The notes under the pieces were generated by a model that was given only the letters and a program-made list of their open reading frames with translations, had not been told where the DNA came from and searched no databases. Shown in pieces: positions 27,375 through 42,320 of a DNA stretch of 64,000 nucleotides; the stretch's first letter is position 1; every line of letters starts with the position of its first letter. Made by a program: the position numbers and the translations under genes. This stretch comes from Chitinivibrionales bacterium (GTDB lineage Bacteria > Fibrobacterota > Chitinivibrionia > Chitinivibrionales > WJKA01), in contig WJLZ01000129.1 of assembly GCA_014728215.1 (NCBI GenBank), forward strand, positions 1 through 64,000. The letters run 5' to 3'.

Positions 27375-28142
27375 ATGGATATCGCAACGATTGGCGGTCT
27401 AATTGCGGCAATTACCTTGATAATTCTTGGTATGAAGGGTAATGCTGCAGCATTTATCGATATTCCATCGGTGCAGATCGTTGTTGGAGGTACTCTGGGG
27501 GCGGTATTTACTGCATTTCCTCTATCCCGGGTACTTGCAACGGGCGGTGTAATTAAAAATGTGATTTTTGTAAAGCAGAATACTCCAGTCCAGATTATCA
27601 AGCAGCTTGTAGAATTTGCCGAACAAGCCCGTCGGGAGGGGATACTTGCGCTGGAGGCGCGGGCATCTGAGATCGATGATGAGTTTTTGAAAAAAGGTAT
27701 TCAGCTGGCGGTTGACGGTACCGAACCGGATCTGATAAAAGATATCTTAAGCACCGAAATAACTTTTATTGAAGGCCGTCACGCAGACGGCGCCGTTATT
27801 TTCGATTTTGCCGGCACTCTCGCTCCGGCTTTTGGTATGATCGGAACGCTTATCGGTCTTATCCTCATGCTTGGTAATATGGCGGATGTCTCGTCGATCG
27901 GACCGAATATGGCCGTTGCGCTGCTGACAACGATGTACGGTTCCTTAATCGCCAATGTATTCTGCCTTCCAATAAATCAGAAACTCAAAGTTTATTCAGC
28001 CAATGAAATTCTCATAAAAGAATTGATGCTTGAAGGAATTATGTCACTCCAGTCGGGGGATAATCCCCGTATCGTGGAGCAAAAATTGACCGCATTCATT
28101 GAACCTTCACTGCGCGCTCAGGCAATGAAGCAGCAGAAGTAA
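27375..28142 (+). CDS. motA: Flagellar motor stator protein MotA
   Basis: A 255-aa MotA/PomA with four predicted membrane helices and conserved features: IATIGGLIAAITLIILGM at the N-terminus, an Arg/Glu-rich cytoplasmic loop (QARREGILALEARASEI), and the second pair of helices with FGMIGTLIGLILMLGNM and MAVALLTTMYGSLIANV. MotA with MotB forms the stator that converts ion flow to torque. Translation of motB follows after 14 nt. Ion specificity (H+ or Na+) cannot be assigned with confidence from sequence. Confidence 0.95.
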   Translation: MDIATIGGLIAAITLIILGMKGNAAAFIDIPSVQIVVGGTLGAVFTAFPLSRVLATGGVIKNVIFVKQNTPVQIIKQLVEFAEQARREGILALEARASEIDDEFLKKGIQLAVDGTEPDLIKDILSTEITFIEGRHADGAVIFDFAGTLAPAFGMIGTLIGLILMLGNMADVSSIGPNMAVALLTTMYGSLIANVFCLPINQKLKVYSANEILIKELMLEGIMSLQSGDNPRIVEQKLTAFIEPSLRAQAMKQQK

Positions 28143-28156
28143 GGACGATTCGAGTA

Positions 28157-28894
28157 ATGGCCGGCAAAAAGAAAAAGGAAGAACAGAAAAAAGGCGCACC
28201 GGAGTACATGACCACCTATGGTGACATGATGACGCTTCTGTTGTGCTTTTTTGTGATGCTTCTTGCAATGTCAACTATTGATCCGGCTAAATTCCATGTT
28301 GCGGCATCCTCGTTTCAGAATGCATTCAGCGGGGTTCTTGAAGATTTTCCATCCATACTTATCAGCAAAGACATTCTGATACCCCGTTTAGGTGGTGATG
28401 AGCAGAATAAACGTATGGCTATCGATGCCCGCCGGAGAATACTGAAAGTGGCAAAACAGGAGAATATGCAGGATGGTATCAAGGTTAAAGTCACCGATGC
28501 AGGGCTGGCGATAAAGATTGCCGATCCCATCGGCTTTGATGTGGGGGAGGCGCAAATCAAGCCTGAATTTACTGATCTGTTGTATAAATTAATCAAGATT
28601 ATCAATATCGATCCCAATGCGCAGATCAGAGTTGAGGGGCATACCGATAATGTGCCGATTAACACACGGAAATTTCCATCGAACTGGGAATTATCCGCGG
28701 CACGGGCGCTTAATATCGTCAAATTTTTCGCTTATAAATGCGGGATTGAACCGGCACGACTGAGCGCCGTCGGATACGGGGAATATAGGCCGGTTGCTCC
28801 CAATGATACGCCGGAAAGCAGACAAAAAAACCGCCGGATCGAAATTTATGTCGAATATCTTGAGAAAGAAGAAATGGACGAACTAAAGAGCTGA
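28157..28894 (+). CDS. motB: Flagellar motor stator protein MotB
   Basis: The 245-aa MotB has one N-terminal membrane helix (MTTYGDMMTLLLCFFVMLLAMS) with the ion-carrying Asp23, then a plug/linker and the OmpA-like peptidoglycan-binding domain (VRVEGHTDNVPI, NWELSAARALNIV, GYGEYRP, RRIEIYVEYL). The total is slightly short but complete. It anchors the stator to the cell wall. Confidence 0.95.
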   Translation: MAGKKKKEEQKKGAPEYMTTYGDMMTLLLCFFVMLLAMSTIDPAKFHVAASSFQNAFSGVLEDFPSILISKDILIPRLGGDEQNKRMAIDARRRILKVAKQENMQDGIKVKVTDAGLAIKIADPIGFDVGEAQIKPEFTDLLYKLIKIINIDPNAQIRVEGHTDNVPINTRKFPSNWELSAARALNIVKFFAYKCGIEPARLSAVGYGEYRPVAPNDTPESRQKNRRIEIYVEYLEKEEMDELKS

Positions 28895-28947
28895 AGCCTC
28901 ATAACGATAAATGGCGCACAGGACTATCAGTGTAAACGGAGGAATCC

Positions 28948-29508
28948 ATGGCAGAGGAAGAAAAAAAACAGGAGCAGAAGGAACAACAGGGACAAGGGGA
29001 AGGTTCTGAAAAGGGGGAGAAAAAAAAAGGATCGAATACAATCCTCTTTTTCGGAATTATCGGTGGCATTGTCGTTATAAATCTGATCATGGCATTCATT
29101 CTTTTTAATGTGACCAGGCCCAAGAGCGAAGAAGATCAAGCAGCCGAAGTTGCCGTGGATTCGGCTCAGACAGTCATGGAAGAGACAACGGCAATGGGGG
29201 CGACTTCGGAGCCTATAGAAGCCGTTGTCAATATTGCCGATACTGACGGCGAACGTTTTCTGAAAGTGGTGGTCATACTTGAATATAATGAAAGTAATAA
29301 AGATCTCCCCGAGGAACTGGTCAGGCGGGCGCCGCGGTTTAAAAATATTCTCATTGACCAGCTCTCGCAGATGACTCTAATGGAACTCAGTGAACCTGCA
29401 GCAAAGGAAAAGATCCGGAAAGAATTTTTACGACGGATAAACAGTACTCTGCCGCCGAAAATAGGGGAAGTAAGTAATGTTTATCTGGATCAGTTTATAA
29501 TCCAGTAA
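28948..29508 (+). CDS. fliL: Flagellar basal-body protein FliL
   Basis: A 186-aa FliL with a Lys/Glu-rich cytoplasmic N-terminus, one membrane helix (NTILFFGIIGGIVVINLIMAFILF) and a periplasmic C-terminal FliL domain (VEAVVNIADTDGERFLKVVVILEYN ... FKNILIDQLSQMTLMEL). FliL surrounds the stator and enhances torque. The low-complexity N-terminal 30 residues are unusual but within family variation. It lies before fliM by 20 nt. Confidence 0.9.
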   Translation: MAEEEKKQEQKEQQGQGEGSEKGEKKKGSNTILFFGIIGGIVVINLIMAFILFNVTRPKSEEDQAAEVAVDSAQTVMEETTAMGATSEPIEAVVNIADTDGERFLKVVVILEYNESNKDLPEELVRRAPRFKNILIDQLSQMTLMELSEPAAKEKIRKEFLRRINSTLPPKIGEVSNVYLDQFIIQ

Positions 29509-29528
29509 GTTGAGAAAAGGAATGAGTT

Positions 29529-30554
29529 GTGAGTGACATATTATCACAAGATGAAGTCGATGCCCTGTTGAGTGCGGTTTCCGCCGGTGGCGACAGCGAT
29601 CTTGGCGGTTTTGATGAAGGATCGATGGGAGGGGGCGAAGAAGAAGCGGAGCAGGAAAAAGCACTTTCGCTTTACGATTTCCGCCGTCCGGACCGTGTCT
29701 CCAAAGATCAGATGCGCACCTTGCAGAATCTGCATGAGGGTTACGCACGCCAATACTCAACATCCCTGACAAATTTTCTCCGCACCTTCGTGGAGATCGA
29801 ACTGGTCAGTGTGGATCAATTGACATTCTCCGAATTCATAATGTCGATTTCCAATCCAAGCTGTATCTACGTTTTCAAGATGGATCCCCTGGAGGGCAAT
29901 GCGATAATGGAAATCAATCCATCACTGGTCTTTTTCATTATCGACCGTCTGTTCGGCGGTCAGGGCAAGCCTTCGGAACAGAATAGAGAGCTAACGCTCA
30001 TTGAAGAGAATGTAATCCGGCGCATTGTCGACCGGGGGCTCAGTGATTTGAAAGATGTCTGGGAGCATATCGGTGTCTTTACTCCACGAATCGAAACGTA
30101 TGAAACTAATCCCCAGTTTGTTCAGATTGCTCCTCCCGGTGAAACGGTTATCCTGATTTCACTGGAAGTCCGGATGCAGAATGCATCGGGGTTGATGAGC
30201 CTTTGTTTTCCCTATGTTGTTTTAGAAAGTGTTATCAGTAAACTTTCGGGTGAATCGTGGATGTCGTCACAGAGCACCGCCACAGTTGAGACACGACAGG
30301 TTCTCGAACATGAAATCGAGGCGCTCAAGCTTCCGGTCTCGGCGGTGATCGGTCAGACTAAACTGAAAGTCAGAGACCTTTTACAGCTTCAGCGTGGGGA
30401 TGTTTTGTGCCTCGAAAAACCTGCCGAAAGCGATCTGGCGATCCAGGTTGGCAGTAAAACAAAAATGGCGGGAAAAACCGGCCTGATAGGCCGCAAAAAA
30501 GCGGTGAAAGTTACAAAGATAATTGAGAAGGAGGTTCCGGGTAGCGATGAGTGA
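29529..30554 (+). CDS. fliM: Flagellar motor switch protein FliM
   Basis: The 341-aa FliM opens with the CheY-P binding motif ILSQDEVDALL, followed by a flexible Gly/Asp/Glu linker. The conserved FliM domain follows (LYDFRRPDRVSKDQMRTLQNLHEGYARQ, then FVEIELVSVDQLTFSEFI), and a FliN-like C-terminal domain. The start is GTG at 29529, required to keep the CheY-binding motif. It overlaps fliN by 8 nt. Binds FliG, FliN and CheY-P in the C-ring. Confidence 0.9.
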   Translation: MSDILSQDEVDALLSAVSAGGDSDLGGFDEGSMGGGEEEAEQEKALSLYDFRRPDRVSKDQMRTLQNLHEGYARQYSTSLTNFLRTFVEIELVSVDQLTFSEFIMSISNPSCIYVFKMDPLEGNAIMEINPSLVFFIIDRLFGGQGKPSEQNRELTLIEENVIRRIVDRGLSDLKDVWEHIGVFTPRIETYETNPQFVQIAPPGETVILISLEVRMQNASGLMSLCFPYVVLESVISKLSGESWMSSQSTATVETRQVLEHEIEALKLPVSAVIGQTKLKVRDLLQLQRGDVLCLEKPAESDLAIQVGSKTKMAGKTGLIGRKKAVKVTKIIEKEVPGSDE

Positions 30555-31620
30555 ACCATTATCAGAAGATCAAATTAACGATTTGCTGTCCCAGGATACC
30601 GGGGAAGGTATTAGCGCGGATTCCCTTGACATGGGCGGGGGAAATGATTCGGGTGGTGAAAAAAATTACGATACATTACAGAAAACCGTTGAATTATTCA
30701 ATAATCATGCCCAGAATGTATTGACCACCGTTCTCAATAAACAAATCGGTTTTGAAATCACTCGTTGTGAAAAAACCGATACATCGGCCATTCAGGAAAC
30801 TGTTTCCGGTGATTTATTGTCCATAAAGATAACTGCAGAAGGCGCAGTGTCCGGTGATCTGTTTCTGGTTATCACTAAAAATGCGGTAGCGGTGCTTTCT
30901 GATCTTATGATGATGGGTGATGGTACCGCGGAATATGTTGACGATCACAAGGATGCAATCAGTGAACTTGCGAGTCAGATGATCAATCCCTTCGGGGTTG
31001 AACTTGGAGAGAAGTTCGGTGAAAGTGTTTCCTTTGGTAATATCGAAGTTCAGGAATGCGATTCGGGATCACTACCCTTTGATAGTGCTGCCTCTGATAT
31101 GGCCCTTCTAAACGTAACGGTTGAAGGCATGGAGGGGTTTACTATCGCCATGGTTCTTTCCGATGAGATAAGCGGAGCAATGATCGCGCGCCAGGGAAGT
31201 GCAAACGAGGGGAGCGGTGAAGAAAAGGATCTGGATGAAGGTATCGGCCTCAGCGCGGATGAGCTCAATGATCTTGCTTCGGTATCCTCAGATTTTGACG
31301 GCGGTGATTCGTTTCAGGAATCCCCGCTCATGGATAAATCCTCAGGATCGAAATCGCAGGGCGATTCGGTCGATATGCTTATGGATGTGGATCTTGATGT
31401 TTCCATTGAGCTTGGAAGAACATCCCTTTCTATTAAAAGGATTCTGGAGCTGGCACCGGGTTCAATCGTCGAGTTGGATAGAATGGCAGGCGAACCGGTC
31501 GATCTTATGGTGAATAATAAAGTTGTCGCAAAAGGTGAAGTTGTCGTCGTTGATGAAAATTTCGGAATCCGGATTGTTTCTCTGGTATCTGCAGAAGACC
31601 GCATAAGGAGTTTGCGCTAA
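30547..31620 (+). CDS. fliN: Flagellar switch protein FliN, FliY-like
   Basis: At 357 aa this is much longer than a simple FliN. It starts with a second CheY-binding-like motif (LSEDQINDLLSQD), continues with a CheC/CheX-like middle (about residues 35-220) and ends with a FliN/SpoA domain (MDVDLDVSIELGRTSLSIKRILELAPGSIVELDR). This arrangement is the FliY type found with a CheC-like phosphatase domain in several phyla. Whether the CheC part dephosphorylates CheY here is not shown by sequence; the diagnostic E-x3-N of CheC is not obvious. It overlaps fliM by 8 nt and fliO by 1 nt. Confidence 0.85.
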   Translation: MSEPLSEDQINDLLSQDTGEGISADSLDMGGGNDSGGEKNYDTLQKTVELFNNHAQNVLTTVLNKQIGFEITRCEKTDTSAIQETVSGDLLSIKITAEGAVSGDLFLVITKNAVAVLSDLMMMGDGTAEYVDDHKDAISELASQMINPFGVELGEKFGESVSFGNIEVQECDSGSLPFDSAASDMALLNVTVEGMEGFTIAMVLSDEISGAMIARQGSANEGSGEEKDLDEGIGLSADELNDLASVSSDFDGGDSFQESPLMDKSSGSKSQGDSVDMLMDVDLDVSIELGRTSLSIKRILELAPGSIVELDRMAGEPVDLMVNNKVVAKGEVVVVDENFGIRIVSLVSAEDRIRSLR

Positions 31621-32174
31621 TGTCGATAATCAGGTGTACGGGGTGTCTGTTGGTGATCTCTATTGTTTTGTTTGGAACCTCCTTGTGCACGGCGCAGGAT
31701 GATAAGGGCAAGCTTGATCTAAAAGAAGTCAAGCGGCTGGTTGCCGCAGAATCGGCCTCCGGCGACAGCGCCCCGGCTCATTCAGCCGCAACCGGAGGGG
31801 AAGAAGAGTCGGAAAATCTTATTCTGGTAATCTTGCGAATTACCGGTTATCTTGTGTTGATTGTCGTACTGATTTTTGCAATTGCCTGGCTGGTCAGAAA
31901 GGGAGGGTTTGCCGGCGGTTCCAAAATAGGCGGAGGCTCAATGGATATCCTGGAAGTCCTTCACTTGGGAACAAACAGAAGCCTTCTGATGGTACGGGTG
32001 ATGGATCAGGTGATACTTTTAGGGCAAACACAGAATACTATCAATGTTCTGGATAAAATCGAAGGGCCTCAGGCCCTCGAAATAATATCATCCTCGAAGA
32101 GAGGCGTTTCCATTAACGGGTTCAAGGATACACTTGAGAATTTTGTCGGAAAAATGGGAAAAAAATCATCGTGA
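31620..32174 (+). CDS. fliO: Flagellar biosynthesis protein FliO
   Basis: A 184-aa FliO with a cleavable-looking N-terminal signal, a Ser/Ala/Glu linker and a central membrane helix (ILRITGYLVLIVVLIFAIAWLVRKGG). A short cytoplasmic domain (MDILEVLHLGTNRSLLMVRVMDQVILLGQT) follows, as in other FliO/FliZ proteins. FliO helps FliP ring assembly. The start overlaps the fliN stop by one base and the end overlaps fliP by four, typical for fliN-fliO-fliP coupling. Confidence 0.85.
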   Translation: MSIIRCTGCLLVISIVLFGTSLCTAQDDKGKLDLKEVKRLVAAESASGDSAPAHSAATGGEEESENLILVILRITGYLVLIVVLIFAIAWLVRKGGFAGGSKIGGGSMDILEVLHLGTNRSLLMVRVMDQVILLGQTQNTINVLDKIEGPQALEIISSSKRGVSINGFKDTLENFVGKMGKKSS

Positions 32175-32986
32175 AATGCACGCATCCACAGACCTCTCCA
32201 TTATCGGTATCGGCTCTTTTTAAAAGAAGCTTGAGCAGTTTTTTTTCAAAGAAAAAAATTGTCCTTTCATACTTCTTTTGCCTGGCTTTAGTTTCACCCC
32301 TCTTTTCTCAGGTGTTGCCAAAAGTAACCTTGTCGGTTGCCGATGCCGAAAAGCCTGCCGATGTTGCAGTGGCCCTGCAGCTTCTCTTTTTGATCACCGT
32401 TCTTGCCCTGGCTCCATCCATAATGATCATGGTAACCTCCTTTGTAAGGATTGTGATTGTTTTTTCCTTTCTCAGAAGGGCATTGGGGACTCAGACGATG
32501 CCGCCCGATCAGGTAATGGTTGGCCTGGCACTGTTTCTGACCATGTTTATCATGATGCCTGTATTTATGCAGATTAACGACGAAGCTCTTCAGCCCTATC
32601 TTGCCGAAGAGATTCACTGGAAACAGGCATTAGAAAGGGCGGGGAACCCGCTGCGTAAATTTATGCTCAAACAGGTCAATGAAAAAGATGTCGCTCTTTT
32701 TGTGAGGATTTCGAGTTCGCCTCTACCGAAAAATGCAAACGACCTTCCCTACGAAGTTCTGATACCGGCATTTATTACCAGTGAATTAAAAACGGCATTT
32801 ATCATCGGTTTTATACTGTATATTCCCTTTTTGGTAATTGATATGATCGTAGCGAGTGTGCTCTTGTCGATGGGAATGATGATGCTTCCGCCAATAATGA
32901 TATCGATGCCCTTTAAAATAATACTCTTTGTACTCGTTGATGGATGGCACTTGCTGGTAAGGCAACTTGTTGTTTCATTTCAATAA
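32171..32986 (+). CDS. fliP: Flagellar export gate protein FliP
   Basis: A 271-aa FliP with a cleavable signal (VLSYFFCLALVSPLFSQ) followed by the conserved membrane core: LLFLITVLALAPSIMIMVTSFVRIVIVFSFLRRALG, the TQTMPPDQVMVGLALFLTMFIM segment and the C-terminal PPIMISMPFKIILFVLVDGWHLL. The GTG start overlaps fliO by 4 nt. FliP5-Q4-R1 form the export gate. Confidence 0.95.
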   Translation: MKCTHPQTSPLSVSALFKRSLSSFFSKKKIVLSYFFCLALVSPLFSQVLPKVTLSVADAEKPADVAVALQLLFLITVLALAPSIMIMVTSFVRIVIVFSFLRRALGTQTMPPDQVMVGLALFLTMFIMMPVFMQINDEALQPYLAEEIHWKQALERAGNPLRKFMLKQVNEKDVALFVRISSSPLPKNANDLPYEVLIPAFITSELKTAFIIGFILYIPFLVIDMIVASVLLSMGMMMLPPIMISMPFKIILFVLVDGWHLLVRQLVVSFQ

Positions 32987-33011
32987 CCGACGGAGATGAG
33001 GTCGAAGAATA

Positions 33012-33281
33012 ATGGAACCATTAGTAGCAGTCGATATTGGAAGAGAAGCATTGATTACGGTGCTCTTCATTTCCGGTCCTCTTTTGCTTGCCGGGCTTGT
33101 TGTCGGTCTGCTGGTCGGAATATTTCAGGCCGTTACACAGATTCATGAGATGACCTTGACCTTTATACCGAAGATTCTGGCTATTGTCGGTGTGCTTCTG
33201 GCATTGCTGCCCTGGATGCTGATAAAATTCATCGATTACACTATTCGTATATTTGAAATCATTCCAACGGTTACGGGATAA
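33012..33281 (+). CDS. fliQ: Flagellar export gate protein FliQ
   Basis: An 89-aa protein with two membrane helices: VLFISGPLLLAGLVVGLLVGIFQAVTQIHEMTLTFIPKI, then LLALLPWMLIKFIDYTIRIF. Length and the Gln-Ile-x-E-x-T-L motif are typical for FliQ. It lies between fliP and fliR with a 2-nt gap to fliR. Confidence 0.95.
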   Translation: MEPLVAVDIGREALITVLFISGPLLLAGLVVGLLVGIFQAVTQIHEMTLTFIPKILAIVGVLLALLPWMLIKFIDYTIRIFEIIPTVTG

Positions 33282-33283
33282 TA

Positions 33284-34063
33284 ATGACCTGGTTGTCCTT
33301 TGAAAATGTACAGTTTTTTCTGGTGGTCTTTGTTCGTGTCACCGCGATGATATCGCTGTTGCCGGTTCTCGGCTCCCAGAATATTCCGGTACATGTAAAG
33401 GTTATCTTGTCATTTGTTCTGGCGATAATAATTTTTCCCATGGTGCCGATACCTTCAACAAGGCTTGATCAGTTTTCGACGGTTCATTTTTTTGTAATGA
33501 TTATCAAAGAGGTATTTGTAGGATTACTCATCGGCTTTGCATCAACCTTCCTTTTTGCCGCAGTTCAGTTTGCCGGGCGACTTATCGATACCCAGATGGG
33601 TTTTGCTCTTGTTCAGCTGATCGACCCCTTTACAGATGCTCGGGTGTCGACCATGGGGCAGTTTAAAACACTGGTTTTTACCATTTTTTTCCTTTTGATA
33701 AATGGTCATTTTTTTCTGATTCTGGCAATCCAGAAAAGTTTTGAGGTTATTCCTCTTCTTGGAGTATCAATGCCCGGAGGAAAGATAGCATTTCTTCTGG
33801 TATCGATGGCCGGGAATGTTTTTGTCGCGGCGTTGAAGCTTTCGGCACCGGTCTTTATCGCGCTGGTTCTGACCTCGATCACAATGGGAATCGTAGCGCG
33901 GACTGTGCCGCAGGTTAATGTTTTTTTTGTGGGTCTTCCACTCAAAATCGGAGTGGGACTTGTTTCAATGATTGTTGCCCTGCCCATGCTGACAACTGTA
34001 TTTAAAAAGATGTTTGATGCATTGATGCAGGATTTATGGAAACTGTTGTACTTAATGGCCTGA
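33284..34063 (+). CDS. fliR: Flagellar export gate protein FliR
   Basis: A 259-aa polytopic membrane protein with FliR features: RVTAMISLLPVLGSQNIPVHVKVILSF near the start, the EVFVGLLIGFASTFLFAAVQFAGRLIDTQMGFALVQLIDP core and a C-terminal LKIGVGLVSMIVALPML segment. A single FliR sits with FliP and FliQ in the gate. flhB follows after 19 nt. Confidence 0.95.
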   Translation: MTWLSFENVQFFLVVFVRVTAMISLLPVLGSQNIPVHVKVILSFVLAIIIFPMVPIPSTRLDQFSTVHFFVMIIKEVFVGLLIGFASTFLFAAVQFAGRLIDTQMGFALVQLIDPFTDARVSTMGQFKTLVFTIFFLLINGHFFLILAIQKSFEVIPLLGVSMPGGKIAFLLVSMAGNVFVAALKLSAPVFIALVLTSITMGIVARTVPQVNVFFVGLPLKIGVGLVSMIVALPMLTTVFKKMFDALMQDLWKLLYLMA

Positions 34064-34082: not shown

Positions 34083-35153
34083 ATGGCTGAAGATGGCTTT
34101 CAGGAAAAGACTGAAGCCCCAACCGAGAAGAGGCGTGCCGAGGCGCGCGAGAAAGGTAATGTTCCGAAGAGCACCGAATTAAATTCGGTTATTATTCTTC
34201 TTACCGGTCTCATTCTTCTACGCATGTTCGGCCGGAGAATGCTCGAAGATATCGGGGGGATTTTCAATTATTATCTTGGTATGTTATCCGACGTGGGGAT
34301 GTCGCCCGCTATCTTTGTCGGCATTTTCAGAGACGCTGCTTTTATGGTTGCCAAAGTTGCCATGCCGCTCGTTCTGGGTATTCTGGTGGCCGGGCTGATT
34401 GCCAACTACTTGCAGATCGGGGTGCTTTTTACATTGAAACCATTACAGCCGAAACTCGAAAAAATAAATCCTCTCTCGGGGATGAAAAGACTTTTTTCTA
34501 TGAAATCGATTGTTGAAACATTTAAAAATCTCATGAAAATTACAATCATTGCCATAATTGCGTATATAACTATCAGAGGCCGGTTTTTTCACTTTATGAA
34601 ACTTGCGGATACAGGCCCCGGCGCCATCTGGGTCTTTTTCATGACCACGGCTTTCACTATTGTATGGAGAATTGTGCTTGTCCTGATTATTCTGGCTCTG
34701 CTCGATTTATTCTATCAGCGGTATGAACATGAAAAAAATTTGAAAATGACAAAAGAAGAGATCAAGGAAGAGCGGAAACAGATGGAGGGGGATCCCCAGA
34801 TCAAATCGAGAATCCGATCACTGCAAAGAGAAATGGCCCGGCGGCGGATGATGCAGGAAGTTCCGAAAGCGACTGTCGTTGTAACAAACCCTACCTATAT
34901 CGCCATTGCCATTCGGTATGAACCCGAGGAAAATGCGACACCCCGCGTGCTGGCAAAGGGGAAAAGGCATGTTGCTGAAAAAATTAAGGACACAGCACGG
35001 GAGCATGAAATCCCTATTGTAGAAGATAAACCACTTGCAAGGGCAATGTACGATAAAGTCGAACCCGGTGAAGATATCCCGGTAGAATTCTTTACCGCTA
35101 TAGCCGAAATTCTGGCCTATGTCTACCGGCTCAAAAATAAGGTGGCTGCATGA
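34083..35153 (+). CDS. flhB: Flagellar export switch protein FlhB with NPTY motif
   Basis: The 356-aa FlhB has the standard N-terminal Glu/Lys segment (EKTEAPTEKRRAEAREKG), four membrane helices and a cytoplasmic domain. The autocleavage site reads VVVTNPTYIAIAIRYE (Asn269-Pro270-Thr271-Tyr272), not the usual NPTH. Cleavage after Asn drives the switch from hook to filament export together with FliK. The His of NPTH aids but is not the nucleophile, so cleavage may still happen, perhaps more slowly. The stop overlaps the next gene, an Ig-like protein, by ATGA (35150-35153). Confidence 0.95.
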   Translation: MAEDGFQEKTEAPTEKRRAEAREKGNVPKSTELNSVIILLTGLILLRMFGRRMLEDIGGIFNYYLGMLSDVGMSPAIFVGIFRDAAFMVAKVAMPLVLGILVAGLIANYLQIGVLFTLKPLQPKLEKINPLSGMKRLFSMKSIVETFKNLMKITIIAIIAYITIRGRFFHFMKLADTGPGAIWVFFMTTAFTIVWRIVLVLIILALLDLFYQRYEHEKNLKMTKEEIKEERKQMEGDPQIKSRIRSLQREMARRRMMQEVPKATVVVTNPTYIAIAIRYEPEENATPRVLAKGKRHVAEKIKDTAREHEIPIVEDKPLARAMYDKVEPGEDIPVEFFTAIAEILAYVYRLKNKVAA

Positions 35154-36871
35154 GAGCAAATAAAAATTCGATCCTCAGGGGAATCCTGACCGGGTGGTGC
35201 CTGATCGGCATGTTTCTCACCTGTGTATCACCAACAAATGTTGAGGAAGATGAATTCCCGATCATGATCTATCTGGATGAACTCGACAAAACAACAGCAA
35301 CCTTCAGCGGCAATCCTGTAAAGGTTATTATTATTCCCAACGATTCACTCTATTTTTCAGATCTGAACTGGAATATGGGTGAAGCCAGATTTCTCGAGTA
35401 TCCTTATGCAGGTTCTGAGGAAAAATATCGTCGCATGGAAGTCGAATTGACCTGGTTATATACTCCTCAGAACTATGATTCGGCAAAAGGTATGGCCTAC
35501 GATACTGTGTTTGTCACGGTAGGGGGCGAAAAGCTGCGAAGCAATGTGGTGAAAGTTTATGTATACAATATTCCTCCGGTTATCTATGAAATAAAGGTAA
35601 ACAGCACAAAATTATCCCCCGATTTTGATGTTGTGGAGTATAAGGTCGAATCAACAAGCGTGTGTACCATCTCTGTGGTGGCGAATGATTATGATGATGC
35701 CAATACTTATGATGTTACCTGGTACGCAGCGAGCGATACCTTAGATACCCTTCGTCCGATCGAACCGTTTACATCAAGGCTGGCATCCCGGAAAGGCTCC
35801 CTTAACTATTATACGACCCCAGGCAGCTATTTCCGAGATACCGTATATATTCAGGCCTATGATGGTGATGGCGGGCATGCGCGGAAAACATTGATCCTTT
35901 ACCGGCTGAGTCCCAATACATCACCGGTTATCGACAGCGTACGGGTAGACAGTACTACCTTTTGGGGGAGTTCCGGTATCTTCCGTTATCGTAAATTGTC
36001 ACTAGACACAATGGCATTAAGCGTTTTTGCTCGTGATGCCGATCAGGATACATTGACCTATACCTGGCTTGCCCGGAATTCAACCGCCCTTTCTTCCGAC
36101 ACTACCCATGGTTCCTACATTTGCCCGGCAAGCAATTGCAGCGACACTCTGCGTACAACGGTTATTGTCGATACAATCAAAATTGCCGTTACCGACCCTC
36201 GGAATAACAGCGACACTGTGGCTGTTCAGGTCGTTCACGGCGATATTCCGCCGGTTATTGACAGTATGAGCATTGGCGACACAACAACACAGCGTGACAC
36301 CATCGATATCAACCTCTTTCAGGGTGACACACTTACTTTACGGATATACACCTCGGATACCGATCCATGGGATTCGGTCACCACAACATGGGTACCCTTT
36401 ACCGGGCCGGGAGTAAGTGTAACAGCAATAGGAGATACAGGAGCACGGTATATCGCGAAAGATTCGACGTATACCGACAGAATACTGGTTACGTCAACCG
36501 ACGGCGTCTTTGATACCGGTAAAGCGGTCTTTATCAATGTCTTCAATAATGATCCTGTTCTCGACAGTATTTCTGTGTCCGGCGGTACCGACACGACATT
36601 TACCAGTGATGTTTCTTTGTATTCCTATGCAAAGAACGGTGCCGATACTCTGGTTTTAAAAGCCTATGCGGCAGATCCCGACACCGTGCACGGTGATTCG
36701 GTTGGATATGCATGGCTGAATGATGCAACTGAAATTGCGGTCGGAGACACTGCGACCTTTGTCTGCAAGGATTCCACCTATGCCGATACGTTATCACTCA
36801 GAGTAACAGATTCAAAGGATGGTCTGGTGGAAAAATATATCGAAATTTCTGTAACAGGATCCGGGATATGA
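35150..36871 (+). CDS. Ig/cadherin-like repeat lipoprotein candidate embedded between flhB and flhA
   Basis: The 573-aa protein is joined by 4-nt ATGA overlaps to both flhB upstream and flhA downstream, so it is almost surely translated with them. The N-terminus has a membrane signal ending GMFLTC, a possible but atypical lipobox. The rest is a repeated Ig/PKD-like array: repeats open with 'PPVIYEIKV', 'SPVIDSVRV', 'PPVIDSMSI' and 'DPVLDSISV', each followed by a D-T-x-T/L-rich strand with W near the end (VTWY, YTWLA, TTWVP, YAWLN). Such domains usually mediate surface adhesion or polymer binding. No known flagellar protein has this form. It may tether the basal body or sheath to the envelope. 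Confidence 0.85.
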   Translation: MRANKNSILRGILTGWCLIGMFLTCVSPTNVEEDEFPIMIYLDELDKTTATFSGNPVKVIIIPNDSLYFSDLNWNMGEARFLEYPYAGSEEKYRRMEVELTWLYTPQNYDSAKGMAYDTVFVTVGGEKLRSNVVKVYVYNIPPVIYEIKVNSTKLSPDFDVVEYKVESTSVCTISVVANDYDDANTYDVTWYAASDTLDTLRPIEPFTSRLASRKGSLNYYTTPGSYFRDTVYIQAYDGDGGHARKTLILYRLSPNTSPVIDSVRVDSTTFWGSSGIFRYRKLSLDTMALSVFARDADQDTLTYTWLARNSTALSSDTTHGSYICPASNCSDTLRTTVIVDTIKIAVTDPRNNSDTVAVQVVHGDIPPVIDSMSIGDTTTQRDTIDINLFQGDTLTLRIYTSDTDPWDSVTTTWVPFTGPGVSVTAIGDTGARYIAKDSTYTDRILVTSTDGVFDTGKAVFINVFNNDPVLDSISVSGGTDTTFTSDVSLYSYAKNGADTLVLKAYAADPDTVHGDSVGYAWLNDATEIAVGDTATFVCKDSTYADTLSLRVTDSKDGLVEKYIEISVTGSGI

Positions 36872-38979
36872 ACCTATCAAATGCCATAAGCGCGACCGTT
36901 AATCGTCCGATCTGGCAGAGTATTGCGCAGCGAAAAGACCTGCTGATCGTCATCGGAGTTGTTTCCATACTCATTGTCATGGTAATTCCGATTCCCACGG
37001 CTTTCATGGATATTCTGCTCACGTTGAATCTTTGCCTGGCGCTGATAATATTCTTATCGACCATGTACAGTTCGGAGGCCCTGGATTTTTCGGTGTTTCC
37101 CGCCTTATTGTTGACAGTGACACTCTTCAGGTTGTCACTTAATGTTGCGACAACCCGTCTGATATTGAGCCAGGCGGATGCCGGACAGGTAATTGAGGTA
37201 TTCGGTACCTTTGTTACCCGGGGAAATGCGCTGGTCGGATTTATCATATTCATTATCATTGTTTTAATTCAGTTTGTTGTGATCACTAAAGGTGCAGGGC
37301 GTATTGCCGAAGTTGCTGCGCGGTTTACTCTTGATGCTATGCCGGGGAAACAGATGGCGATCGATGCCGATCTCAACTCGGGATTGATTACTGAAGAACA
37401 GGCCCGGGATCGGCGGATGAAAATTTCTCAGGAAGCCGATTTTTACGGGGCCATGGATGGAGCCTCCAAATTTGTGCGGGGTGATGCCATTGCAGGCATT
37501 ATTATTACTATTATTAATGTTATCGGCGGCTTTATTATCGGTATTGCTCAGATGGGAATGGACTTTCAGACAGCCATTTCAACATATACCCGTCTGACAA
37601 TTGGTGACGGTCTTGTCAGTCAGATACCCGCACTCATGATTTCTACCGGTGCCGGTATTCTTGTAAGCCGTGCGGCTTCAAAGAGCAGTCTGGGTGATGA
37701 AATCAGTACCCAGCTTTTAAAAAATCATAAAGTTCTGTTTGTAGCCGGCGGAGTTATGCTTCTTTTTTCTATGATACCCGGCTTTCCCAAGATTCCCTTT
37801 ATCACTCTGGGGGTTTCGGTTATCGCAACCGGGTATATCGGCATGAAAAGAATAAAGGCGGAAGAGCAGAAGCAGGCTGAAGCGGTTCCAACCGCACAGC
37901 CGGAACAGGAACGTGCGGAAGACTACCTTCATGTTGACCCCATGGAACTCGAAATCGGATATGGTCTTATTCCACTTGTTGATAAATCGCAAGGTGGAGA
38001 TCTCCTCGATCGGATTACCATGATTCGCCGTCAACTCGCCACAGAACTCGGAATAATCATCCCCCCGGTAAGGATTCGCGATAATATTCAATTAAAGCCC
38101 AATGAATACAGAGTAAAAATTCGAACAATCCTGGTGGGCAAAGGCGAATTGATGAGCGGGTCGTATCTGGCGATGGATCCGGGGACTGCAACAAAAAAAA
38201 TACGGGGTATCGAAACCGTTGAACCGGCCTTCGGCCTTCCTGCACTCTGGATTACCGAGAGCCAGAAAGAAAATGCAGAACTGGCAGGTTATACAGTTGT
38301 CGAACTTCCGGCCGTACTGGCGACTCATATAACCGAGTTAGTTAAGAACCATGCGCATGATTTATTGACCCGTCAGGATGTACAAAATCTTGTTGACAAT
38401 ATAAAGGACGAGCATTCGACGGTTGTCTCCGAGTTGATTCCCAATATTCTTACGGTGGGAGAAGTTCATAAGGTACTGCAGAACCTTCTCCGGGAAAAGG
38501 TCCCGATCCGTGATTTACCGATAATTCTGGAAACTCTGGCCGATGTGGGTGTGAAAAATAAGAACCCCGAAATTCTGACCGAATATGTACGCAATTCTCT
38601 GGCGCCACAAATTTGCGACATCTATAAAGATGAGTCGAATATTATTCCTGTAATAACGGTCGATCCAAATCTCGAGGCCAAGCTTGAAGCCAATATTCAG
38701 GAAACCGAGGCCGGATTCCGGCTGGCCTTATCGCCCTCGGAAGTCGGACGGATACTCGATGCCTGTGGTGTTCAGGTCGACAATGCCAAGAAACGGAATG
38801 AAATTCCGATAATTATATGCTCGCCGACCATTCGCTCTCAAATAAAACGTTTGACGGAAAGTAATTTCAAAGATCTTGTTGTGCTGTCATATAATGAGAT
38901 TATTCCCGGAATCGAAATACGATCATCAGGAATGATTTCACTTGAAAGACCACAGGCTGATAAGCCGTCACAGGGATGA
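36868..38979 (+). CDS. flhA: Flagellar export gate protein FlhA
   Basis: The 703-aa FlhA has eight predicted N-terminal membrane helices (DLLIVIGVVSILIVMVIP and following) and the FHIPEP-type cytoplasmic linker: RFTLDAMPGKQMAIDADLNSGLITEEQARDRR. Its cytoplasmic FlhAC domain starts around residue 360. It includes GAGILVSRAA and FVRGDAIAGIIITIIN, which match the family exactly. FlhA forms the nonameric export ring and docks substrate-chaperone complexes. It starts within the stop of the Ig-like gene. Confidence 0.97.
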   Translation: MNLSNAISATVNRPIWQSIAQRKDLLIVIGVVSILIVMVIPIPTAFMDILLTLNLCLALIIFLSTMYSSEALDFSVFPALLLTVTLFRLSLNVATTRLILSQADAGQVIEVFGTFVTRGNALVGFIIFIIIVLIQFVVITKGAGRIAEVAARFTLDAMPGKQMAIDADLNSGLITEEQARDRRMKISQEADFYGAMDGASKFVRGDAIAGIIITIINVIGGFIIGIAQMGMDFQTAISTYTRLTIGDGLVSQIPALMISTGAGILVSRAASKSSLGDEISTQLLKNHKVLFVAGGVMLLFSMIPGFPKIPFITLGVSVIATGYIGMKRIKAEEQKQAEAVPTAQPEQERAEDYLHVDPMELEIGYGLIPLVDKSQGGDLLDRITMIRRQLATELGIIIPPVRIRDNIQLKPNEYRVKIRTILVGKGELMSGSYLAMDPGTATKKIRGIETVEPAFGLPALWITESQKENAELAGYTVVELPAVLATHITELVKNHAHDLLTRQDVQNLVDNIKDEHSTVVSELIPNILTVGEVHKVLQNLLREKVPIRDLPIILETLADVGVKNKNPEILTEYVRNSLAPQICDIYKDESNIIPVITVDPNLEAKLEANIQETEAGFRLALSPSEVGRILDACGVQVDNAKKRNEIPIIICSPTIRSQIKRLTESNFKDLVVLSYNEIIPGIEIRSSGMISLERPQADKPSQG

Positions 38980-39026: not shown

Positions 39027-40247
39027 ATGAGAATTAAAAAATATACCGCAAAAAACATGCGGGAAGCTCTTCTGAAGATCAAGGATGATCTGGGAGAAGA
39101 AGCGGTTATTTTAAAGACAAATAAGCTGCAGGGCAACCTGTTTGCTTTGGGCAAAGGTGATCAGATTGAAGTCACTGCTGCTATCGATGAAAATGCCGGT
39201 CCTTCAAAACAAAAGGCAAATCCCATTCATCTGGCCGATCCCGGGGTATACCGGCGGCCCCGTCCGACCCGTGCGGGTGATTCAGCCATTCCCGCTGTTA
39301 CTCCTGTCAAACCGGCTTTTCCCCAAAAGGAAAGCGCCCCCAAAAGCAGCAGCCCGCAACCTGTTCAGATTCAAAGCTATAATGAGATTAAAAATGAGAT
39401 CAGGGAGTTGAAAGAACTGGTTCGGCTTTTGGCAAGGCCGGAGGATACGATGGCGGCAGGGGGCTTTACACGGGGCTGGGCTGTTTTGTATAAATGCCTT
39501 GTCGATTCCGAAGTGAAGCCTGATTCGGCCGGGCGGCTTATCGCTAATATCAGAAGTAAGTATGAAACCGACGATGTTACCATCGATGAAACATTTATTC
39601 GAGAACTCGAACGGTATTTTCCGGTATCGGGGCCTATCAGGTCGAAGATGGATGGGCCTGAGATTGTTGCCCTGGTAGGACCGACTGGTGCGGGGAAAAC
39701 CACAACATTGGCAAAACTTGCCGCCGGATATGCTCTGGAGCAGGAAAATATGGTGTCGGTTATTACGGCCGACACCTACCGAATTGCTGCAATAGAACAA
39801 ATCCGGACATTTGCCGATATCACCGGTATTGCACTTCATGTTGTCTTTTCCCCCGAAGAGATCCCCGATGCCCTTGCTGCATGCGAAAATGATGATTTTG
39901 TTTTTGTCGATACGGCAGGTCGAAGTCAGAATAACAGTGAACATATGAACGAGCTGAAAGAGCAGTTAAAAGTCCTTCATCCGGATGAAGTTCATCTTGT
40001 GCTCAGCGCTACCACAAAAGACTCCGATCTGGAAGATATCGTCGGCAGGTACAGAGAAATGAATGTAAATCGTCTACTTTTTACTAAACTCGATGAAACC
40101 CGTCACGTGGGAAATATCTACACGCTGGTCGATAAGACCCAGATACCGGTATCCTACTTTACCGCCGGGCAGAGTGTGCCTGATGATATTGAACCGGCTC
40201 ATTCATCGAAGTTTATGCGCAGGCTCTGGGAGGGAACAAGGCTGTGA
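39027..40247 (+). CDS. flhF: SRP-type GTPase FlhF
   Basis: A 406-aa FlhF: basic N-terminal domain (MRIKKYTAKNMREALLKIKDDLGEEAVILKT), a Pro/Ser/Lys linker, and the NG domain with P-loop VGPTGAGKTTTLAKLAA, TADTYRIAAIEQIRTFA, DTAGRS and TKLDETRHVG. FlhF sets number and place of polar flagella in other bacteria. The stop overlaps flhG by 4 nt (GTGA). Confidence 0.95.
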   Translation: MRIKKYTAKNMREALLKIKDDLGEEAVILKTNKLQGNLFALGKGDQIEVTAAIDENAGPSKQKANPIHLADPGVYRRPRPTRAGDSAIPAVTPVKPAFPQKESAPKSSSPQPVQIQSYNEIKNEIRELKELVRLLARPEDTMAAGGFTRGWAVLYKCLVDSEVKPDSAGRLIANIRSKYETDDVTIDETFIRELERYFPVSGPIRSKMDGPEIVALVGPTGAGKTTTLAKLAAGYALEQENMVSVITADTYRIAAIEQIRTFADITGIALHVVFSPEEIPDALAACENDDFVFVDTAGRSQNNSEHMNELKEQLKVLHPDEVHLVLSATTKDSDLEDIVGRYREMNVNRLLFTKLDETRHVGNIYTLVDKTQIPVSYFTAGQSVPDDIEPAHSSKFMRRLWEGTRL

Positions 40248-41125
40248 AAGATCAGGCGTTGAAGTTAAGGCATATGGCACGGCTAAAATATGGCGCCACC
40301 ACCGAAAGTCTCGTGCAAAGGAAAGAAGCCAAAGGTGTGCTACCTCGTAGCATAGCCGTAACCAGTGGTAAAGGCGGCGTGGGAAAAACCAATATTGCTC
40401 TTATGCTGAGTATGGCACTCTCCTCACTCAATAAGAAAGTGCTTCTTTTTGATGCAGATCTCGGACTTGCAAATGTTCATATCCTCCTTGGATTGTCGCC
40501 GCGGTTTAATTTGTCTCATGTTGCCAATGAAGCGTGTTCGGCCCGGGACACAATCTGCAAAGGGCCGCTTGGTATCGATATTGTACCGGGCTCTTCGGGA
40601 ATACGCCAGATGGCAAATATGGATTCGATGGCACTTGGGATTCTTCACAGGAAGTTAAACGAACTCGAACAGGAATACGATTTTATCGTGATCGACACCG
40701 GGGCCGGTATCGGTGCCTCGACAACGGAGTTTATTCATTTTTCCGATGCCGTAATGCTGGTGATGACCCCCGAACCTGCATCGCTGGCAGATGCCTATGC
40801 CATGATTAAGGTGCTCTATGAACAACGTTCTTCGGATATCAAAGTAATCGTCAATATGAGCAATTCGGACAGGGAAGGGGAAGAAGCATTTTTAAAGCTT
40901 GGTTCAATCGCAAAAAAGTTTCTGAACCGTTCGGTGGTATTAAGCGGAATTTTACCCTATGATAAAGCTGTTCCTCAACTGATACGGAAACAACAAATTC
41001 TGTTTTTAAAAAAACCGAAACAATTGATGTCTTGTCGTATAAAATCGATTGCCCGTTCGCTCTGTTCGGTACCTTCACGTGGCGAGGAAGGTTTTTTCGG
41101 CAGGCTTTTTGGAAAGAATTCATAG
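40244..41125 (+). CDS. flhG: MinD-like ATPase FlhG
   Basis: A 293-aa ParA/MinD protein with deviant Walker A GKGGVGKTNIA, the FDADLGLANVHILLG motif and a C-terminal region with Lys/Arg but no obvious membrane-targeting amphipathic helix. FlhG (YlxH/FleN) restricts flagellar number and activates FlhF. The GTG start overlaps flhF. The genes flhF and flhG here strongly suggest polar flagellation, although this is a family-based inference. Confidence 0.92.
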   Translation: MKDQALKLRHMARLKYGATTESLVQRKEAKGVLPRSIAVTSGKGGVGKTNIALMLSMALSSLNKKVLLFDADLGLANVHILLGLSPRFNLSHVANEACSARDTICKGPLGIDIVPGSSGIRQMANMDSMALGILHRKLNELEQEYDFIVIDTGAGIGASTTEFIHFSDAVMLVMTPEPASLADAYAMIKVLYEQRSSDIKVIVNMSNSDREGEEAFLKLGSIAKKFLNRSVVLSGILPYDKAVPQLIRKQQILFLKKPKQLMSCRIKSIARSLCSVPSRGEEGFFGRLFGKNS

Positions 41126-41140
41126 AGGAGAATCTGGGTA

Positions 41141-41464
41141 ATGATTTATTGGATTAAAAAAATATCAAAAACCGTCAGTGCAGGATCGTTTTTTATAATT
41201 TTTTTTCTCAGTCTGGATTTTTATGATCCGTTGAACACCGGTACCGTTGCATGGGCGTTCTTTAAGGGAGGCGGTGCCGCGGTTTTGGTATGGCTCTGCA
41301 GTTTCTTGCTGGCCGATATCATTTTAAAAAACCTTCTTGAGGATATTGATGATCAAAAAAACGATGTTCTCGATGATGGTTTATTGCAGCGTGTACGGGA
41401 AGAAAAAGAACGCTCAAAATACGGCATCCAGCAAACAGGCAAAAAACAGGGGACTACCACTTGA
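41141..41464 (+). CDS. Small membrane protein between flhG and fliA (107 aa)
   Basis: Two predicted membrane helices (GSFFIIFFLSLDFYDPL then FFKGGGAAVLVWLCSFLLADIIL) followed by an acidic/basic cytoplasmic tail (DDGLLQRVREEKERSKYG). It is placed 15 nt after flhG in the flagellar cluster. I do not recognise a family. The position suggests a flagellar or regulatory accessory protein. Confidence 0.6.
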   Translation: MIYWIKKISKTVSAGSFFIIFFLSLDFYDPLNTGTVAWAFFKGGGAAVLVWLCSFLLADIILKNLLEDIDDQKNDVLDDGLLQRVREEKERSKYGIQQTGKKQGTTT

Positions 41465-41555
41465 TAGAAATGAGCCGTGATTTTACAATATTAAGGATAG
41501 CCGCTGGTGCCCCGGGCAACCAGAAAAGCATCTCGGACCTCGGAAAGGGATTCCT

Positions 41556-42320
41556 ATGGCCAATATAGAAGCCCTGTGGAAGGAATACAGGGAAACTGAG
41601 TCGAAAATTGCAAAAGATAAGCTGCTGGTGGAATATGCACATCTTGTGAAATATGTTGCCTATCGTCTTGCAGTAAATCTGCCGGCGTCAGTTGATAAAA
41701 ATGATTTGATCGGTTCAGGCATTATGGGGCTGGTTAAAGCTGTCGAGACCTTTGATCCTGAAAGGGGTTTTAAATTCGAAACCTATGCCGGGCATAAAAT
41801 CAGAGGGGCTATCCTGGATGAATTGCGGGCACTCGATTGGGTCCCACGATCGGTCAGGCAAAAATCAAAAGACCTCCAGCGGGTCTATTCAAAATTAGAA
41901 AATGAATTGGGAAGAATGCCCTATGATGATGAAGTATGCCAGGAAATGGGAGTGTCTATGAAGGAGTATGAAGAGCTGCTTTCTGAGGTCACTCCCACAA
42001 CAATCCTTTCACTCGAGGAAGCTATGCCGAATCGAGAAGCCGATTCCAAGGAAATCAAGCTTATTGATACCATTGAGAATCCTGGAAGCGAAAACCCTTT
42101 AAAAGCTCTCGGGTTTGCAGAAATAAAAAACATTTTAAAGGAAACAATAGCAAATTTGCCGGAAAAGGAACGGCTGGTTGTTGCTCTGTATCATTATGAA
42201 GAACTTACGTTGAAAGAAATCGGAGTTGTCCTGGAAATATCTGAATCCAGGGTCAGTCAGATCCATTCAAAGGCAATCCTGAAACTCCGGGGCCGACTTT
42301 TGCAGCGGATTAATGCATGA
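41556..42320 (+). CDS. fliA: Flagellar sigma factor FliA (sigma-28)
   Basis: A 254-aa group 3 sigma factor of the FliA/WhiG type: region 2 VEYAHLVKYVAYRLAVNLP, then DLIGSGIMGLVKAVETFDPERGFKFETYAGHKIRGAILDELRALDWVPRSVR. Region 3 and region 4 (LPEKERLVVALYHYEELTLKEIGVVLEISESRVSQIHSKAILKLR) complete it. It would direct late flagellar genes such as flagellin and is normally held by the anti-sigma FlgM, not seen here. Start ATG at 41556, with a GGAAAGGGA site 7-8 nt upstream. Confidence 0.95.
   Translation: MANIEALWKEYRETESKIAKDKLLVEYAHLVKYVAYRLAVNLPASVDKNDLIGSGIMGLVKAVETFDPERGFKFETYAGHKIRGAILDELRALDWVPRSVRQKSKDLQRVYSKLENELGRMPYDDEVCQEMGVSMKEYEELLSEVTPTTILSLEEAMPNREADSKEIKLIDTIENPGSENPLKALGFAEIKNILKETIANLPEKERLVVALYHYEELTLKEIGVVLEISESRVSQIHSKAILKLRGRLLQRINA

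Follow-up and report, generated by a model that had tools for sequence, protein, structure and literature searches.

In a 64,000-nucleotide stretch of DNA from a Chitinivibrionales bacterium (hereafter the window), a gene for a secreted, lipoprotein-like protein, referred to below as X, lies between the flagellar export-gate genes flhB and flhA, and homologues occupy this place across the phylum Fibrobacterota. The recurrence of a homologous gene at the same locus across the phylum puts its location far beyond chance, and the evidence for flagellar dedication of X is strong. Few bacterial machines are as conserved as the flagellar export gate, and flhB and flhA are neighbours in many bacteria; finding a secreted putative lipoprotein throughout a phylum at this position, with signs of selection and one instance of fusion to FlhB, leads to the prediction of a so far unseen accessory of the motor or of its envelope passage. 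Lineage-specific flagellar accessories are themselves known, but specialists would expect neither a secreted lipoprotein conserved in the flhB-flhA interval nor its fusion to FlhB. X indicates a so far undescribed component of the flagellum whose function is unproven, and it illustrates how a module can be replaced in an accessory protein of the flagellum. No description of the gene was found in the literature searched, although one may exist elsewhere, nor was a flagellar motor structure for Fibrobacterota found there. Relatives with and without X are natural controls, and X is a defined target.

Gene setting and domain anatomy of X

As shown in Table 1, X is embedded in a flagellar operon. 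All genes from motA through fliA, including flhB, X, and flhA, run in a single direction in the window, and the order from motA to fliR matches that of relatives (phmmer). The initial annotation had described a 573-aa exported protein overlapping flhB and flhA by 4 nt (ATGA) each, which is confirmed from the sequence; the −4 overlap of flhB and X is also present in 11 other genomes and that of X and flhA in 4. A second copy of X was not found in the window's own genome (G000, 5.0 Mb, 229 contigs). The closest FlhA with a name (77%) belongs to a Chitinivibrionales MAG, which places the window within Fibrobacterota, in Chitinivibrionales or near that order. Among the neighbours, orf107 (41141-41464 in the window; 14227-14529 in L142, for example) encodes a small protein conserved phylum-wide between flhG and fliA, which is without a match in Pfam or NCBIfam and was not found in G266, a genome outside the phylum, or in two outgroup genomes. 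The cleavage motif of FlhB is NPTY in the window and varies among NPTH, NPTY, NPTF, and NPTT in the phylum; no association between these variants and the presence of X was found.

Table 1. Position of X, its parts, and its flagellar neighbours in the window
Feature	Position	Strand	Basis
X, 573-aa exported Ig-array protein	35150..36871	+	ORF, ATG start; subject of this report
flhB, export gate/switch protein	34083..35153	+	Pfam Bac_export_2, 1.4e-130
flhA, export gate	36868..38979	+	Pfam FHIPEP, 1.8e-273
ATGA overlap, flhB/X	35150..35153	+	X ATG 35150-35152; flhB TGA 35151-35153
ATGA overlap, X/flhA	36868..36871	+	flhA ATG 36868-36870; X TGA 36869-36871
AGGTGG, possible Shine-Dalgarno for X in flhB tail	35140..35145	+	Inferred from sequence; 4-nt spacer
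motA motB fliL fliM fliN fliO fliP fliQ fliR, upstream operon part	27375..34063	+	ORFs; phmmer
flhF, flhG, orf107, fliA, downstream	39027..42320	+	ORFs
Signal peptide up to Cys25	35150..35224	+	Alignments A1/A2; AlphaFold2 helix 2-24
D1, family-defining N-terminal Ig-like domain (residues ~38-140)	35261..35569	+	A2/A5 conservation, profile matches, AlphaFold2 strands
D2, second beta-sandwich (~144-252)	35579..35905	+	AlphaFold2; alignable phylum-wide
D3, Ig/cadherin-like repeat (~260-363)	35927..36238	+	AlphaFold2; weak PKD_2 292-358
D4, Ig/cadherin-like repeat (~369-477)	36254..36580	+	AlphaFold2
D5, Ig/cadherin-like repeat (~482-569)	36593..36856	+	AlphaFold2

The AlphaFold2 model of window X consists of a signal helix (residues 2-24) and five beta-sandwiches (about 38-139, 144-252, 260-363, 369-477, and 482-569); it was built on a 7-sequence alignment, and with moderate confidence (mean pLDDT 70.6) and a pTM of 0.38, its domain arrangement is not reliable. 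Cadherin and Ig arrays top the Foldseek list for this model, as they would for any such array. Against Pfam, window X reached 22.2 bits with PKD_2, below the gathering cut-off of 39.2, while its orthologues match Big_9 as strongly as 1.6e-14; the "at least four Ig/PKD-like repeats" of the initial annotation were thus right in kind, given the five modelled sandwiches, the Foldseek result, and Big_9 in orthologues. D3-D5, and probably D1-D2, share the fold of Big_9/PKD domains and cadherin-like arrays; however, such domains do not specify function, and D1, for which no Pfam match was found, is specific to the family. The window X sequence gave a single spurious match in the PDB, a designed protein, and no match in PHROGs. 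Conservation is highest in the membrane-proximal D1, where C1, W78, D94, and N116 are invariant and G30, S107, and P119 nearly so.

The C-terminus of X is exchangeable, being an NHL beta-propeller in most lineages and an Ig/cadherin-like array in Chitinivibrionales, where X varies from 496 to 1025 aa within the order. In the predicted structure of the homologue L142, a signal peptide and two low-confidence beta-sandwiches are followed by a propeller of high local confidence, which groups with NHL/YVTN propellers by Foldseek and profile searches; Pfam NHL was matched in 7 of 14 family members. The C-terminal half of most non-Chitinivibrionales X is accordingly like known NHL propellers (the PknD sensor domain, the Pizza designs, and the archaeal S-layer YVTN-PKD protein 1l0q), whereas window X has an Ig array there and no propeller. 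Since the fold class of this part has changed, any outward contact it makes is not conserved.

Cys25, which follows the hydrophobic segment, is invariant in Chitinivibrionales (11/11 and 12/12 sequences). The residues before it in window X are F-L-T-C, and bulky residues (C, H, V, F, W) often precede Cys in other Chitinivibrionales, where a canonical lipobox has a small one (G/A/S); in most other lineages a canonical lipobox is found, such as LLFSC or FSGC. A lipid anchor on the N-terminal Cys is likely but not certain, because the Chitinivibrionales residues before Cys are non-canonical.

Distribution, fusion to FlhB, and evolutionary history

X homologues were sought among 40 relatives, with a D1 profile (A2), and with a broader profile (A5) in 168 phylum genomes; FlhA served as bait for locating the loci. 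Several families among the 40 relatives have X homologues (~25-37% identity), and wherever the surroundings of a strong match are assembled, the match abuts flhB and/or flhA; A2 identified 17 genomes, some of them distant and in other classes, all at the flhB/flhA locus. A5 found one family member each in 32 of the 168 genomes (a second weak match in G007 falls within the same protein), and none in phylum genomes without flagellar genes. All 32 directly adjoin flhB and/or flhA, or 33 of 33 when G266 is included. Homologues are therefore not mostly away from flagellar genes, nor is the insertion unique to one strain, the two outcomes that the initial annotation had named as making a flagellar role unlikely. 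flhA was detected in 62 of the 168 genomes, of which 31 carry X; the 32nd X genome (G006, 83% complete) has flhB beside X as well as FlgH and FlgI, flhA not having been detected in it.

X separates flhB from flhA in the Chitinivibrionales genomes G000, G002, G003, G004, G007, G009, G012, G014, G026, and G039, and also in Raymondbacteria (L142), L129, Fibrobacteria nGRbin1 (L131), and L144. In Fibrimonadaceae, flhB is located away from flhA and X is directly upstream of flhA (mostly 1-12 bp), and in G029 (L078, 8836-9958) X stays with flhB, flhA being 24 kb off on the contig; retention with one gene or the other after the operon had split counts for flagellar dedication. The contig breaks inside X in G027 and ends after flhB-X in G146. 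In G029 the gene is broken up, as a pair of ORFs of 205 and 180 aa that overlap, and looks to be decaying toward loss. Second, divergent fliR-flhB-flhA-like loci are present in G012 (L075) and in G156 and G158 (L177-L179), with FlhA identity of 37-38% and X absent; small ORFs lie between flhB and flhA in L177-L179, which possibly belong to another type III secretion system.

One genus is represented by two genomes (G165, L175; G164, L180), and in each of them FlhB and X form a single uninterrupted frame, of 910 aa in the first and at least 811 aa in the second, which is cut by the contig end. The signal peptide and Cys of X (LGQS-C, FQQG-C) come straight after the FlhB C-terminus, with no in-frame stop and no ATG between the two parts. 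Residue divergence between the two genomes is 29%, the frame is kept in both, and dN/dS is 0.15 for the X part versus 0.14 for the FlhB part. A single FlhB-X polypeptide would be the simplest reading of these sequences, though no proof, since an internal GTG start is possible; the fusion supports coupled production and goes beyond the overlaps noticed at first. Fusions of FliR with FlhB exist in some flagellar and type III systems, and there, too, an export-gate protein is joined to its neighbour's product; however, the partner of FlhB here is a secreted lipoprotein precursor rather than a gate protein.

The dN/dS of X is about 0.2, and 0.15-0.32 within Fibrimonas relatives, which indicates purifying selection, the values being simple Nei-Gojobori counts with many Fibrimonas pairs near saturation. 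Distances of X (D1-D2) and FlhA are correlated, with r = 0.94 overall and 0.99 outside Chitinivibrionales, and weakly so within ten Chitinivibrionales (r = 0.21, p = 0.09); since this is expected of any vertically inherited pair, the correlation backs vertical inheritance and not interaction.

In a set of 392 genomes, about 97 from outside the phylum bear flhA, and no D1 match at E 0.001 was found among these ~97. The flhB-flhA interval was read in 40 of them; two had no flhB that could be located in the vicinity of flhA, and in 37 of the 38 readable ones the genes are adjacent (gaps of −11 to 224 bp). The exception is G266, where a 548-aa ORF in a 1.6-kb gap has a signal peptide ending in FSGC, a D1-like domain (E 3e-5), and a C-terminus that appears propeller-like by eye; its phmmer match with L131 is 2e-11. 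In a quick tree, the G266 FlhA branches as sister to every Fibrobacterota FlhA sampled (SH-aLRT 90), and X is found on both sides of the basal split of the phylum in the FlhA tree. Because X occurs in this sister lineage, it probably predates Fibrobacterota; likewise, the propeller is common to G266 and all non-Chitinivibrionales, so it is probably the ancestral form, from which the Ig array of the window would be derived.

Flagella are regarded as an ancestral, vertically transmitted trait of the phylum (PMC4704652). The presence of X on the FlhA tree needs 8 changes, some of which are perhaps contig-end artefacts (G047, G031); several losses of X fall in flagellated Chitinispirillaceae and in the families f7 and f11. 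Direct flhB-flhA adjacency shows X to be clearly absent from G021, G022, G025, G028, G030, and G032 (family f4) and from G155, G156, G158, and G159 (family f11), and the A5 profile has no D1 match anywhere in the genomes of family f7 and genus g5. A Chitinispirillum genome (L127) has a 240-bp flhB-flhA gap without X, and the type species of this genus bears a single flagellum (PMC4814513). In the 93-255 bp gaps of genomes lacking X, no convincing remnant was found, the best tblastn match being E 0.008 over 22 aa. X is thus not carried by all flagellated members; its repeated loss, including in Chitinispirillum, marks it as an accessory rather than a core flagellar gene, and it is probably dispensable for having a flagellum. 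As for the initial interpretation, a lipoprotein-like, exported, Ig-like protein tied to the export gate stands, on the signal peptide and Cys, the beta-sandwiches, and the linkage of 33/33, whereas these losses in flagellated relatives weaken the case for a strict stoichiometric need of X in the structure.

Proposed role and alternative explanations

It has been reported that periplasmic and outer-membrane scaffolds surround some flagella, such as the H-ring of Vibrio (FlgO/FlgP/FlgT) and the disks of Campylobacterota (FlgP-PflA-PflB) (PMC7990780). Like X, these are lineage-specific accessories that serve polar flagella (flhF/flhG being present here), and several are lipoproteins of the outer membrane, but X is an Ig array or an Ig part with an NHL propeller and its gene lies inside flhB-flhA. 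Pfam, NCBIfam, and PDB profile searches found no sequence match between X and FlgO/FlgP/FlgT or PflA/PflB, so that the likeness on which a scaffold role would draw is one of analogy and not homology; no homologue with known function was found by sequence and structure searches. A secreted, lipid-anchored protein whose domain near the membrane is conserved while its outer part can be exchanged would suit an accessory scaffold or anchor, and on balance we lean towards X being a lineage-specific, flagellum-dedicated lipoprotein that acts in this way at the basal body or envelope passage.

According to this proposal, stop-start coupling with FlhB and FlhA would have X translated from the export-gate operon, in small amounts and in step with new export gates; Sec would secrete it, and the N-terminal Cys would anchor it to one of the membranes. 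The conserved D1(-D2), beside the anchor, may then dock to the basal body or envelope passage, the propeller or Ig array reaching out toward the cell wall, the outer membrane, or the cell surface, and X would improve the building of an external flagellum without being required. A motor contains about one FlhB and nine FlhA, and overlap with genes of such low copy number implies low-level synthesis of X per new gate; such coupling would be more in keeping with an accessory of the basal body than with a sheath or an adhesin made in bulk. Of the roles suggested initially, those of a sheath, a periplasmic flagellum component, and an adhesin gained no positive support, and the second is disfavoured: FlgH and FlgI, the outer rings, occur in nearly all flagellated members of the phylum with or without X, and a spirochaete-like periplasmic flagellum is therefore unlikely. 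More tentatively, X could belong to a substructure of the motor confined to Fibrobacterota and the sister lineage, a lipoprotein ring or tether at the export gate and rod or at the outer-membrane passage, co-assembled with the gate (as the FlhB fusion in one genus may indicate), whose outward module was swapped from propeller to Ig array.

It is rather unlikely that X is instead a surface lipoprotein, an outward-facing adhesin or substrate sensor that binds polymers or neighbours and has only a regulatory tie to the flagellum. Its nearest structures are cadherin/Ig arrays and surface-layer propellers, Ig arrays and propellers are typical of surface adhesins, and so are the variable repeat number and the C-terminal swap; cultured relatives, moreover, live attached to polymer particles (PMC4814513). 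However, coupling to the export gate would yield few copies, X is absent from all genomes without flagellar genes, including the non-motile Fibrobacter group, and conservation peaks next to the membrane rather than at the outward tip. Less probable still is a role in gate assembly or quality control, in which X would be membrane-anchored, face the periplasm, aid FlhA/FlhB insertion or guard the gate until the rod passes, and stay outside the finished motor. The strict placement between flhB and flhA, the two-sided overlap, and the in-frame fusion would agree with it, but FlhA and FlhB expose little periplasmic surface and are otherwise ordinary in lineages without X, and the variants of the FlhB cleavage motif are not linked to X.

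That X is a passenger without flagellar function, retained through operon inheritance, is very improbable, since, its repeated loss notwithstanding, X evolves under purifying selection, stayed with either flhB or flhA where the operon broke, is fused to FlhB in one genus, and occurs nowhere else. It is equally hard to credit that X stands in for an outer-ring part that is missing, or provides FlgH with the lipid anchor it appears not to have: X has a Cys where the FlgH of readable relatives has none, but replacement of FlgH/FlgI is ruled out by the occurrence of both genes in almost all flagellated genomes irrespective of X, and an anchoring role is weak because G025, G022, and G005, which lack X, share the same kind of FlgH. 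As a separate observation, the FlgH of readable Fibrobacterota (L182-L198) has a signal peptide and a mature start without Cys, so the L-ring protein in this phylum appears to be free of a lipid anchor and not a lipoprotein.
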